DNA of 54,701 nucleotides from Thermococcus sp. Its GTDB lineage: Archaea > Methanobacteriota_B > Thermococci > Thermococcales > Thermococcaceae. Where the stretch lies: positions 1 through 54,701 of the forward strand of contig NZ_WANV01000004.1 in the NCBI RefSeq assembly GCF_015521605.1. The letters run 5' to 3'. The notes under the pieces are model-generated. The model searched no databases. It was given only the letters and a program-made list of their open reading frames with translations, and had not been told where the DNA came from. Shown here piece after piece: positions 9,611-17,833 of the stretch (position 1 is the first letter of the stretch; every line of letters starts with the position of its first letter). Position numbers and translations under genes: made by a program.

Positions 9611-11275
9611 ATGGCACAGCTTAGCGGACAGCCGGTTGTTATTCTGCCCGAGGGGACTCAGAGGTACGTTGGAAGGGACGCCCAGAGGCTCAACATTCTG
9701 GCTGCTAGGATTATCGCCGAGACGGTGAGGACCACCCTCGGCCCGAAGGGAATGGACAAGATGCTCGTCGACAGCCTTGGTGACGTCGTTGTCACAAACG
9801 ATGGCGCCACGATTCTTGACAGGATCGACCTCCAGCACCCTGCTGCTAAGATGATGGTTGAGGTTGCCAAGACTCAGGATAAGGAGGCTGGCGATGGAAC
9901 TACCACTGCCGTTGTTATCGCTGGTGAACTCCTCAGGAAGGCTGAGGAGCTCCTCGACCAGAACATCCACCCGAGCATCATCGTCAAGGGCTACACCATG
10001 GCCGCCGAGAAGGCTCAGGAGATACTTCAGGAGATCGCCATAGAGGTCACCCCGGACGACGAGGAGACCCTCATGAAGATAGCCATGACCTCAATCACCG
10101 GCAAGAACGCCGAGAGCCACAAGGAGCTCTTCGCGAGGCTCGCCGTTGAGGCCGTCAAGCAGGTCGCCGAGAAGAAGAACGGAAAGTACGTTGTCGACAT
10201 CGACAACATCAAGATAGAAAAGAAGGCCGGAGAGAGCGTCGAGGAGAGCGAGCTCATAAGGGGAGTCGTCATCGACAAAGAGCGCGTTCACCCGAGGATG
10301 CCCACCAAGGTCGAGAACGCCAAGATAGCGCTCATAAACGAGGCATTGGAGGTCAAAAAGACCGAGACCGATGCAAAGATAAACATCACCAGCCCGGACC
10401 AGCTCATGAGCTTCCTTGAGCAGGAGGAGAAGATGCTCCGCGAGATGGTCGACCAGATCGCTGCCACCGGTGCGAACGTTCTCTTCGTCCAGAAGGGTAT
10501 CGACGACCTCGCCCAGCACTACCTGGCCAAGTACGGTATCCTCGCCGTCAGGCGCGTCAAGAAGAGCGACATGGAGAAGCTCGCCAAGGCTACCGGAGCC
10601 AAGATCGTCACCAACGTTAAGGATCTCACCAGCGATGATCTCGGCCACGCCGACCTTGTTGAGGAGCGCAAGATCGCCGGCGAGAGCATGATCTTCGTTG
10701 AGGGCTGCAAGAACCCGAAGGCCGTCACCATACTCATCCGCGGCGGCACCGAGCACGTCATCGACGAGGTTGAGCGCGCTCTGGAAGATGCCATCAAGGT
10801 CGTCAAGGACGTCATGGAGGACGGCTACGTCCTTCCGGCCGGAGGTGCCGGTGAGATAGAGCTCAGCATCAAGCTCGATGAGTACGCCAAGCAGGTCGGC
10901 GGCAAAGAGGCCCTCGCGATAGAGAACTTCGCCGATGCCCTCAAGATAATCCCGAAGACCCTCGCTGAGAACGCCGGTCTCGACACCGTCGAGATGCTCG
11001 TCAAGGTCATAAGCGAGCACAAGAACAAGGGCGTTGCCATAGGCATCGACGTCTTCGAGGGCGAGCCGGCCGACATGCTCGCCAAGGGTATCATCGAGCC
11101 GCTCCGCGTCAAGAAGCAGGCCATCAAGAGCGCCAGCGAGGCCGCCATAATGATCCTCAGGATCGACGACGTCATCGCTGCCAAGATAAGCAAGCCCGAG
11201 GGCGGCCAGGGCGGAGGAATGCCAGGCGGTATGGGCGGTATGGGTGGAATGGGCGGCATGGACATGGGCATGTGA
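9611..11275 (+). CDS. Thermosome (group II chaperonin) subunit
   Basis: A 554-residue subunit of the double-ring archaeal chaperonin, which folds proteins using ATP and a built-in lid. Signatures include [20 protein letters not shown] and the nucleotide-site GDGTTT (94-99). The apical and equatorial regions are complete. The C-terminus ends in a GGM-rich tail ([15 protein letters not shown]), the flexible, methionine-rich end inside the cavity. Codon choice is strongly biased to GC-ending codons, consistent with high expression. The start is fixed by AGGAGG and the ATG at 9611. Thermococcales carry one or two such subunits; which paralogue this is cannot be decided from the window. Confidence 0.97.
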
Positions 11276-13548: not shown

Positions 13549-14496
13549 TCAGCTTACCCTGAACTCAAACCCCCTCGCGAAGGTGTACGCTTCCCTCAGT
13601 TCTGGCCTCTCCTTCAGGAACCTGAGAATGTACTGGCCGCAGTTCGAGCCGATGAGGTTCTCCCTTGTGTCGCCGACGGATATGATGACGTCGTAGCCGA
13701 GCCTCCTGAGGTCGTCAACAAAGCGTTTGTGCTTCATCGGAAGGCCCGTCTCAAGGTCAACGTCGTTGGTGAGCTTATTCTTCAGCACGCTCACCGTCGG
13801 GTTGAGGGGCGTTATCTTGATGAGGAAGTACTCCCTCGGGAAGTACTCGGCTATAACGCTCGCGTCCGCCTCGTTCTCCTGTGCTAAGGCGAAGTTGAGC
13901 GTAATCTTCTTGCCCCCCTCGTCGTAGAAGGCCTTTCCGTACTCGGCTATCCTCTCGAAGTCCCACTTCCTGACCGGGATTATCTCGTCCCTTTGAGCGG
14001 GGTTCGTGGAGTGTATCGAGAACTGGAGCTGGAAGTTGGTCGGGAACATCTCCTTCTTGAGTTCAAGGAGAGCATCGAAGAACTTATCGGTCCCTATCGG
14101 GGCTATCGTCGAGAGAGACGGGTGGAAGTTCCCGTAGCGCTCGCCAAGGAGGCGCATCGCCTCTACCACAGCCATGTTGAAGCTCGGCTCGCCCATCCTC
14201 GCGAACTGCACCTTGAACTTCCTGGTTTTCGGCTTCCCACCCCAGCGTTTCTGAATCGGGTACTCTATCTGCTCCATCAGCTCGTCCACGCTCAGCTTCC
14301 CCTTGTAGAAGAAGCCGGCGTCGCACATCTTGCAGCCGACCGGACAGCCGTTGAGCGATGAAACTATGAGCACCCACTTCTCTGCCGGGTTGTGGGTCGG
14401 GATCGATTCGACGAACTCGACGATGTTCCCCTTCGAAGTCTTCCCTATGTAAACGACCGCAACGTTGGGGTCACCAACCTCACTCAGTATCTCCAT
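13549..14496 (-). CDS. RlmN/Cfr-like radical SAM protein without the resolving Cys
   Basis: A 315-residue radical SAM enzyme. CPVGCKMC (Cys 51, 55, 58) is the CxxxCxxC that binds the 4Fe-4S cluster. RMGEPSFN corresponds to the GMGEP SAM motif. SNCGQ (Cys 286) corresponds to the methyl-carrying Cys of RlmN (C355 in E. coli, in ACGQ). The adenine-C2 methylases RlmN and Cfr need a second cysteine seven residues before the cluster; here that position is Ile 44 (LIVSSLNGC against LCVSSQVGC). The N-terminal accessory domain is also short. So the fold and the methyl acceptor are kept but the standard release chemistry is not. It is the last gene of a four-gene operon and overlaps the flavoprotein gene by 17 bases. 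Confidence 0.85.
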   Translation of the reverse strand: MEILSEVGDPNVAVVYIGKTSKGNIVEFVESIPTHNPAEKWVLIVSSLNGCPVGCKMCDAGFFYKGKLSVDELMEQIEYPIQKRWGGKPKTRKFKVQFARMGEPSFNMAVVEAMRLLGERYGNFHPSLSTIAPIGTDKFFDALLELKKEMFPTNFQLQFSIHSTNPAQRDEIIPVRKWDFERIAEYGKAFYDEGGKKITLNFALAQENEADASVIAEYFPREYFLIKITPLNPTVSVLKNKLTNDVDLETGLPMKHKRFVDDLRRLGYDVIISVGDTRENLIGSNCGQYILRFLKERPELREAYTFARGFEFRVS

Positions 14497-15304
14497 ACCT
14501 CTCCCTCCTCCATATCACCATCGCGGTTTTGATTCCGTCCGCTATCGCCAGGGCCGTCTGGCGGTAGATTCCGTTCTTAACGTCTCCAACCAGGAAAAGG
14601 TTATCGTCCTCGATGCCACTCACGAGCTCGACGTTCGGCACCCTGCCGATGGCACCGAGCACCAGCTCAACCTCAAAGTCGCCGACGCTTGTCTTGGCTA
14701 AAAGCTTTTGCTTCCCGTTTATAGGCCTTATTTCCCGAATCTGTCCCATCAGCGTTCTGACGTTCGGGCGCTTCTTCACGAGTTCCTGCAGGTAGGGAAG
14801 AGCTTTGGGCTCGCTCCTCATGAGGACTATCACTTCATCGCTAAGCTCGCTCATGGTTAAGGCGTAGTCGAAGGCAACATCGCCGCCGCCTATGATGAGA
14901 ACCCGTTTGTAGTGCCTCCTCGGAACTTTGGCGACGTGGTAGATTATCCCATCGAAGGGGAGCTTTCTTGGCCTCGTTCCCGTCGCGACCACGAGGTACT
15001 TAAAGCGGTAAGTTCTTCTCGCCGTTTCCACCTCGAAGAGCCCGCCGTTCTTCTTAACGGCCCTGACTTCTTCATAAACGATTCTCAGGCCGTACTTCCT
15101 CACGTACTCCTCAAGGATTTCAACGACCTTCTCGCCATTGATTCCGTCCGGGAAGAACATCGTGTTCTCGACGGAGTAGGCGTTTCTTATGAGTCCCCCT
15201 ATCCTGTCGCGCTCGAAGATTACACTCTCTATCCCGTAGCGCGCCAGCTGGACGGCCGTCGCTATGCCCCCAATCCCAGCCCCGATTATCCCGACAAGAG
15301 CCAT
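14480..15304 (-). CDS. FAD/NAD(P)-dependent oxidoreductase, thioredoxin-reductase-like without CxxC
   Basis: A 274-residue flavoprotein with two dinucleotide-binding folds: GIIGAGIGGIATA at the N-terminus for FAD, and VLIIGGGDVAFDYALT near residues 136-151 for NAD(P)H. The C-terminal FAD motif is NLFLVGDVKNG. The overall plan is that of thioredoxin reductase, but no CxxC stands before the second GGG, so it cannot reduce thioredoxin in the usual way; ferredoxin- or flavodoxin-NADP reductases share this plan. Its genes overlap on both sides (isochorismatase-fold upstream by 19 bases, radical SAM downstream by 17). A role in delivering electrons to the radical SAM cluster is a reasonable inference. 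Confidence 0.82.
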   Translation of the reverse strand: MALVGIIGAGIGGIATAVQLARYGIESVIFERDRIGGLIRNAYSVENTMFFPDGINGEKVVEILEEYVRKYGLRIVYEEVRAVKKNGGLFEVETARRTYRFKYLVVATGTRPRKLPFDGIIYHVAKVPRRHYKRVLIIGGGDVAFDYALTMSELSDEVIVLMRSEPKALPYLQELVKKRPNVRTLMGQIREIRPINGKQKLLAKTSVGDFEVELVLGAIGRVPNVELVSGIEDDNLFLVGDVKNGIYRQTALAIADGIKTAMVIWRRERYGDTE

Positions 15305-15918
15305 TCCAACACCTCCGAGAGGAGCGGCGTAACCGCGAAGCCGTGAGAGAGGTTTCTAAGCGTCGCCTCGTGGAAAAGCCTGTTCTGGGTCAGCGTTCCG
15401 TCAACGGGAAAGACGACGTTGAATCCCCTCACGAAGGCCTCCCTGGCGGTTGTCTCGCAGCAGAGGTGGGTCATGACGCCGGTTACGACGACCGTTTCGA
15501 CGCCAAGCTTCCCGAGCATTCCCTCAAGCTCTGTGCCATAGAAGGCGTCGTAGGTGCTCTTCTCGATTACCGTCTCTGCAAAGGGTTTGAACTCGTCCAA
15601 AAGGTCGTTCAGCAGGTCGTCCTTTGGCATATCGCCGCCCCACCAGCGGGCCATTGTCCCGCCCGCGTGATAATGCCTCGTGAAGATTATCGGCACGTTG
15701 AGCTCCCGCACCCTGGAATAGAACTTCACAAGCCTGGGAACGAAACGCGGCACGGAGGGCAGAAACGCCCTGCTCTCCGGGCTGAGGAAGTACTTTTGTA
15801 GGTCTATCGCGAGGACGGCGGATTTTCTGAAGGGTTCTATCTTTCTCCACTTCCTCTCTCGGAAATAGCGGCTCCTCATTTCCGCTATGAACTCCTCTGT
15901 AAGGTAGTCCTCCTTCAT
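15286..15918 (-). CDS. Isochorismatase/nicotinamidase-fold cysteine hydrolase
   Basis: A 210-residue protein with the intact catalytic triad of the family: Asp 39 in AIDLQKYF, Lys 120 in VIEKSTYDAF and Cys 153 in GVMTHLCCETTARE. Members hydrolyse isochorismate, nicotinamide, N-carbamoyl amides, ureidoacrylate and similar compounds; the substrate here is unknown. About 30 extra residues precede the core. The start is ATG at 15918. It is the second gene of the operon, 23 bases after the SDR gene and overlapping the flavoprotein gene. Confidence 0.85.
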   Translation of the reverse strand: MKEDYLTEEFIAEMRSRYFRERKWRKIEPFRKSAVLAIDLQKYFLSPESRAFLPSVPRFVPRLVKFYSRVRELNVPIIFTRHYHAGGTMARWWGGDMPKDDLLNDLLDEFKPFAETVIEKSTYDAFYGTELEGMLGKLGVETVVVTGVMTHLCCETTAREAFVRGFNVVFPVDGTLTQNRLFHEATLRNLSHGFAVTPLLSEVLEWLLSG

Positions 15919-15941: not shown

Positions 15942-16748
15942 TTAAATGTCTATCCCCCTCGTCATCGCGCCGTCTATGACGACGGTGGAGCCGAGCATGT
16001 ATTCAGCCTCCTCGCTGAGGAGGAAGGCCACAAGTGAGCCGAGTTCGTTCCATCTCCCCGTCCTGTGGAGGGGCGTTCTTCCGAGCACCTCCCGCCCCCA
16101 TGTCTCCTCGAAGGGCTCGCCTCTCGCCTCGGCGACGGCCCTAAGGTTTTCCCTCGCTCCAGGTGTGTCAAAGCTGCCGAGGAGGACGGAGTAGGCCCTT
16201 ATCCCGCGCTTTCCGTAGGTTCTCGAAACGCTCTTCGCCAGCTGGACAAGGCCGGCCCTCATAACGTCCGCCAGAGCCAGCGGCGGCATCGGCTCCTTTA
16301 TCGAGACGGAGTTGAGGTAAACGAGAACGCCTTTCTTTCCACTTTCAAGCCATCTCCTGATGAGGAGCGTTGTGAGATAGCCGGGGGCTGCCGAGTGAAG
16401 TCTCGCTGCCTCAAGCCAGTCACTGTAGCTGGCTTCATGGACTAAACACGGCTCGCAGGAGACGTTGGGAGCATTCCAGACGAGGGCGTCAACGTCCCCC
16501 AGGAGTTCCCAGCCTATCTTGATGAGGTTGTCGAGGTCCCTGCGATCGTGGAGGTCTGCCCTGACCGCGTGGACTTCACCGAACTCGGCCAGTTCTTCTC
16601 TGGCCTTCTGGAGGTTCTTCCGGTTGTGCGAGCTTATGACCACCTTCGCGTTCCTCCTCAACAGCTCCCTTGCAACGTTGAAGCCTATTCCCCTCGATGA
16701 CGCGGTGACGATGACCCCAAGCCCATCGAGGTCAATTTTCACGCTCAT
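15942..16748 (-). CDS. Short-chain dehydrogenase/reductase with altered active site
   Basis: A 268-residue SDR-fold protein. The cofactor loop is TASSRGIG (for TGxxxGIG), followed by SSHNRKNL, ADLHD and WNAPN (for NNAG). The Ser of LNSVS is in place, but the YxxxK dyad that should follow 13 residues later reads A-D-V-M-R, so both catalytic Tyr and Lys are missing. The C-terminal substrate region (TPLHRTGRWNELGSLVAFLLSEEAEYMLGSTVVIDGAM) is normal. The start is ATG at 16748; a longer frame exists but a TATA element at about 16771-16779 fits a leaderless start here. It is the first gene of the operon and divergent from deoxyhypusine synthase. Confidence 0.82.
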   Translation of the reverse strand: MSVKIDLDGLGVIVTASSRGIGFNVARELLRRNAKVVISSHNRKNLQKAREELAEFGEVHAVRADLHDRRDLDNLIKIGWELLGDVDALVWNAPNVSCEPCLVHEASYSDWLEAARLHSAAPGYLTTLLIRRWLESGKKGVLVYLNSVSIKEPMPPLALADVMRAGLVQLAKSVSRTYGKRGIRAYSVLLGSFDTPGARENLRAVAEARGEPFEETWGREVLGRTPLHRTGRWNELGSLVAFLLSEEAEYMLGSTVVIDGAMTRGIDI

Positions 16749-16770
16749 AAACGCGGGTTGTCTCAGAAGG

Positions 16771-17833
<1,063 letters not shown>

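Follow-up and report, generated by a model that had tools for sequence, protein, structure and literature searches.

The textbook examples of class A methylases, RlmN and Cfr, are defined by two cysteines, and the gene considered here raises the question of what such an enzyme does when only the methyl-carrying cysteine is left. It was noticed in the window, a 54,701-nucleotide stretch from the genome of Thermococcus sp., a heat-loving archaeon (contig NZ_WANV01000004.1). The gene and the codons that matter for the argument are as follows.

13549..14496, minus strand: RlmN-like radical SAM protein of 315 residues without the resolving Cys; open reading frame with its ATG at 14496
14323..14346, minus strand: CxxxCxxC cluster motif, codons 51 to 58, with all three Cys in 131/131 relatives
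14365..14367, minus strand: codon 44, Ile, in the alignment column of Escherichia coli RlmN C118
14416..14418, minus strand: codon 27, Glu, in the column of RlmN E105, which holds Glu in every row of the family and of RlmN
14185..14202, minus strand: codons 99 to 104, A-R-M-G-E-P; in the alignment, RlmN M176-G177 is replaced by Ala/Ser99-Arg100 and GEP is kept
13639..13641, minus strand: codon 286, the methyl-carrying Cys (GSNCGQ), aligned with RlmN C355; Cys in 130/131 family rows, the remaining row having a gap there

An RlmN-like protein with a single conserved cysteine beyond the cluster

The window protein belongs to the radical SAM proteins and descends from the RlmN/Cfr line. It matches Radical_SAM (PF04055) in Pfam with 38.7 bits, and RlmN structures are the best PDB fold matches of its AlphaFold2 model (pLDDT 94) in Foldseek. 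Against the RlmN profile of NCBIfam, TIGR00048, it scores 58.7 bits and does not reach the cut-off of 290; the first profile position matched is 88, out of 355, and the 315-residue protein lacks the N-terminal RNA-binding domain. The original prediction had placed an iron-sulfur cluster motif at residues 51 to 58, a GEP motif, Cys286 within CGQ, and Ile44 in place of C118 in this open reading frame, and all four were found there: C51, C55, and C58 lie within NGCPVGCKMC, GEP occupies residues 102 to 104, C286 lies within GSNCGQ, and Ile44 lies within VLIVSSLNGC. When RlmN proteins encoded in the same genomes were aligned with it, Ile44 fell on the C118 column and C286 on the C355 column. The cluster cysteines and C286 are the only four cysteines of the protein, and its whole 315-residue sequence contains no fifth Cys able to substitute.

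With RlmN (TIGR00048; PDB 3RFA, 5HR6, and 6FZ6) the window family shares the fold, CxxxCxxC, GEP, Glu105, the SAM-site residues, and the carrier Cys of CGQ. Unlike RlmN, it lacks Cys118, Met176-Gly177, and the N-terminal RNA-binding domain, and it has new polar invariants and an operon with a flavoprotein and a hydrolase. Class A architecture and the methyl-carrier Cys are also held in common with Cfr (NF000424 and TIGR04432; PDB 9P0P), but the window protein has Ile44 and no residue matching Cfr C105, and it scores 43 bits (cut-off, 530) and 39.9 bits (cut-off, 550). Class A radical SAM methylases are defined by two conserved cysteines besides the cluster (PMC9692996). The window family combines the class A fold with a carrier Cys for the methyl group, as judged from the Foldseek matches and the presence of C286, which is the only conserved Cys beyond the cluster.

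Residues kept and changed

Residues were counted in an alignment of 131 family members and 17 RlmN-type comparison sequences. The C118 column holds Cys in 17/17 comparison sequences and in 0/131 relatives, where position 44 is Ile in 114, Leu in 9, Met in 4, and other residues in the remainder; the substitution first noticed in one protein is thus a trait of the whole clade. A nearby conserved Cys taking the place of C118, a finding that would have spoken against the original prediction, does not appear in the family alignment, where Cys does not exceed about 10% of the rows at any further column. We therefore rejected compensation by another Cys of the protein.

Kept throughout the family are the cluster, GEP, Asn107, Ser160, His162, Arg169, Asn232, Glu27, and Cys286. 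Changed, with the new residue invariant or nearly so, are C118 (to Ile), M176 (to Ala or Ser), and G177 (to Arg100), the E. coli numbers of the last two being derived by counting along the alignment. At sites where RlmN differs, K95, Q97, R100, Q156, Q158, N201, K227, and N285 are family-specific invariants. Because of this pattern of kept and changed residues, the methyl-loading half of the chemistry appears to have been retained and the release half to have been rebuilt.

What the missing residue does in RlmN bears on how that half is to be read. The original prediction took C118 to be the residue that resolves the enzyme-RNA link. The adduct is indeed trapped by the C118A change, but the main role now assigned to C118 is that of a general base, which sets off radical fragmentation, and not that of a disulfide resolver (PMC9692996). 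E105, the counterpart of Glu27, has been proposed to deprotonate C355, and the electron source that reduces the RlmN thiyl radical has been described as unidentified (PMC9692996).

A conserved three-gene cassette

Closely packed genes lie upstream of the radical SAM gene in the window and are listed here.

14480..15304, minus strand: thioredoxin reductase-fold FAD/NAD(P)H flavoprotein of 274 residues with no conserved Cys (PF07992/PF13738, fold, and linkage)
15286..15918, minus strand: isochorismatase-superfamily cysteine hydrolase of 210 residues, nucleophile Cys153 in HLCCETTAR (PF00857, 136 bits, and linkage)
15942..16808, minus strand: SDR-family oxidoreductase (NF006213, 475 bits), 23 nt upstream of the hydrolase gene

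The flavoprotein gene overlaps the radical SAM gene by 17 nt, and the hydrolase gene overlaps the flavoprotein gene by 19 nt. We examined two locus sets (91 and 40 loci) from many lineages, in which neighbors were counted from mechanical calls of open reading frames. The flavoprotein gene is directly upstream of the radical SAM gene in 78 of the 91 loci and in 39 of the 40, with overlapping starts and stops in most loci, and the hydrolase gene is present in 61/91 and 34/40. Some loci without partner genes are truncated by a contig edge; four others (L037, L057, L060, and L080) continue upstream but show no adjacent flavoprotein match. The cassette is found in Thermococci, in Thermotogota, and in many other lineages, and this linkage of hydrolase, flavoprotein, and radical SAM genes points to a three-gene pathway rather than a broken RlmN. 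The earlier reading of the locus holds in part; it did not include the third gene, the phage relatives described below, or how widely the family is spread. No paper on the cassette was found in the literature library searched, whose coverage mostly excludes subscription journals.

The AlphaFold2 model of the flavoprotein (pLDDT 95) gave thioredoxin reductases as fold matches. The flavoprotein has the same fold and the same FAD/NAD(P)H motifs as thioredoxin reductase, but it is shorter and is without the conserved redox Cys pair; among 80 sequences there is no conserved Cys column and hence no redox CxxC pair. For this reason a thiol reductase was rejected as the partner: the flavoprotein cannot be a thioredoxin-type dithiol reductant, and electrons would come directly from FAD. 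The suggestion that the neighboring flavoprotein reduces the radical SAM protein stands in this modified form, since its conserved linkage makes it a good candidate, though not one of the dithiol type. The hydrolase shares the Asp-Lys-Cys set (D39, K120, and C153, all conserved) with the isochorismatase-superfamily amidohydrolases RutB, BiuH, and N-carbamoylsarcosine amidase, but it scores far below the cut-off of every named family.

Other genes near the cassette were considered as well. The SDR gene is adjacent in the window and is not among the recurrent neighbors across the family loci. A few kilobases from the cassette, at 9611-11275 of the window, lies an open reading frame for a thermosome-type chaperonin subunit with a GGM-rich tail, named by its sequence. 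A defense system was rejected as a candidate; PADLOC gave no match for the radical SAM protein or the hydrolase and a weak desaturase-type match for the flavoprotein. As substrate leads, MttB, LipS2/LipA, and NadA neighbors are all weak. An MttB-family gene lies beside the cassette in L069, L088, and L095, joined in L069 and L095 by genes for a corrinoid protein and a homocysteine methyltransferase; with three loci only, the link to quaternary amines was set aside. LipS2 adjoins the cassette in seven Thermotogota locus records (one contig being counted twice) and LipA does so in L055, but the link to lipoate is uninformative, since LipS2 matches 115/115 Thermococci genomes at E ≤ 0.001. NadA lies beside the cassette in L069 and L088. 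A link to nicotinamide or NAD, which phage NadV and NadM genes (see below) also suggested, was rejected because NadA is near-universal in Thermococci and untied to the cassette.

Proposed pathway and the question of RNA

Our main reading, to which we give a probability of about one-half, is that the radical SAM protein represents a class A-like enzyme family from the RlmN/Cfr line that acts on a target other than rRNA by methyl-Cys chemistry and is fed by the flavoprotein. SAM would methylate Cys286, and the 5'-deoxyadenosyl radical would then generate a Cys-S-CH2 radical that adds to a small polar substrate. Release would need no thiol and would be triggered by a non-thiol base or by the substrate itself. 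The flavoprotein, to go by its linkage, would carry electrons from NAD(P)H via FAD to the cluster and/or the Cys radical, and the hydrolase may prepare or finish the substrate by cleaving an amide or carbamoyl bond. The cassette is most likely a small-molecule pathway, so far uncharacterized, that is shared by Bacteria and Archaea. With one of the two class A cysteines retained across a large natural family, the role of the second can readily be tested there; so can the way in which the carrier Cys radical is reduced, for which the conserved flavoprotein is a concrete candidate electron source.

A non-RNA substrate is favored because the RNA-binding domain is absent, because a true RlmN coexists with the family protein (an RlmN above the cut-off is also encoded in 15/30 carrier genomes), and because polar residues have replaced others in the core. 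The original prediction had raised a different chemistry, perhaps not on RNA at all; a non-RNA target fits these three observations, while the reaction itself is one that we infer. RNA is the main rival. The protein would then methylate RNA, probably a tRNA adenosine, with the RNA or a residue other than C118 acting as the base, and the partners would have a separate function or provide redox support. With Glu27 retained, the substrate could resemble adenine or even be RNA, and the SAM site is likewise retained in full. The nearest characterized relatives are RNA methylases, no true RlmN was found in the window genome when it was scored against the RlmN cut-off, and tRNA genes surround some of the phage relatives. 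Against this, the N-terminal RNA-binding domain is missing, many carrier bacteria have RlmN as well, loss of C118 in RlmN traps the adduct (PMC9692996), and the coupling to metabolic-type genes is conserved, unlike in RlmN. We consider an RNA methylase unlikely on balance.

Phage relatives without C118

Phage records contain relatives that are closer to the window family than RlmN is, some of them near tRNA genes, and two phage families are without C118. In the Versailles type (L222 and L278-L298) Thr replaces C118, the C-terminal Cys is normal, and the tail reads ITCGNA. The split type comprises L225-L277, which are phage records and IMG/VR contigs (L226 being Moorella phage MTATph1), and L299, Pectobacterium phage Wc4. 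Its main open reading frame, of about 262 residues, has Gly at the C118 position and stops short of the CGQ segment, and a short open reading frame (median, 41 residues) with a conserved AACGQL is present in 50/53 locus records, a few of which are the same contig. The barrel and the short open reading frame are more than 1 kb apart in several contigs, which argues against read-through. In Vibrio phage D479 (L300, 5728-6081) the short Cys-carrier open reading frame has GAACGQMAIL twice in tandem, as would suit a carrier with several sites or a substrate peptide. Genes for a NadV-type phosphoribosyltransferase and/or NadM-Nudix lie near the split radical SAM gene in L250-L254, L257, L262, L263, L266-L268, L271, and L274, in some loci just upstream of it.

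The phage proteins without C118 share Trp41, Arg100, Gln158, Lys197, Asn201, and Lys227 with the window family. Unlike that family, they have Thr or Gly at position 44 and no conserved flavoprotein/hydrolase cassette, and in the split type the Cys of CGQL is on a separate short open reading frame. In a combined tree with the phage proteins, which is unrooted and comes from a quick search, the proteins that keep C118 (RlmN, two phage proteins, and L116) group apart from those without it with 97% SH-aLRT support. When IMG/VR was scanned with the alignment of the cellular family, no copy carried by a virus was found. We tentatively suggest that the window family and the two phage families might form one branch of the RlmN/Cfr line in which release does not depend on a thiol; a flavoprotein would complete turnover in cells, and a detachable peptide of about 40 residues with the methyl-carrying Cys would serve in one phage family. 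If true, this would add a new way in which radical SAM enzymes transfer one-carbon units to substrates other than RNA.

The split phage type also bears on a second alternative, in which Cys286 does not release a methyl group but forms a methylene-thioether adduct that is stable, transfers a methylthio group, or relays a radical, so that there is no resolving step. A carrier Cys with its own peptide of about 40 residues, as in these phages, could leave together with the adduct, and in the window family both the resolving or base Cys and Met176 are replaced throughout. However, the phage peptide system belongs to a related group and not to the window family, a metabolic enzyme of a single chain could turn over only once if its adduct were stoichiometric, and the linked flavoprotein suggests redox turnover. 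We doubt that chemistry of this kind applies, and prefer methyl transfer to a small polar substrate with electrons from the flavoprotein.

Spread and selection

Homologues are present in 11/37 genomes of the genus Thermococcus, the window genome included, in 23/115 genomes of the window organism's phylum, and in 45/103 genomes of the phylum that contains the Thermosipho carrier; they are sparser in three other phyla (4/251, 5/125, and 2/247 genomes). A scan of genome contigs gave 277 related stretches, and the best 80 of these 277, which were retained, include many from bacterial and archaeal MAGs. In the tree a long, fully supported branch sets the family apart; by its sequences, the family is one deep clade across two domains, Bacteria and Archaea. 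The median dN/dS among Thermococcus orthologues is 0.07, and the family is under strong purifying selection. Sequencing error, gene decay, and frameshift are ruled out by this value and by the 131 relatives. A degenerate or inactive RlmN paralogue that has lost its resolving Cys is very improbable, even though the missing residue is essential in RlmN (PMC9692996), given the low dN/dS, 50 columns that are invariant across 56 diverse members, and a deep clade in two domains with a conserved operon.

A Methanoculleus genome (L116) encodes a short RlmN-like protein of about 278 residues that keeps C118 and has Gln158 and Asn201 as in the window family; it sits on a long branch in the tree.
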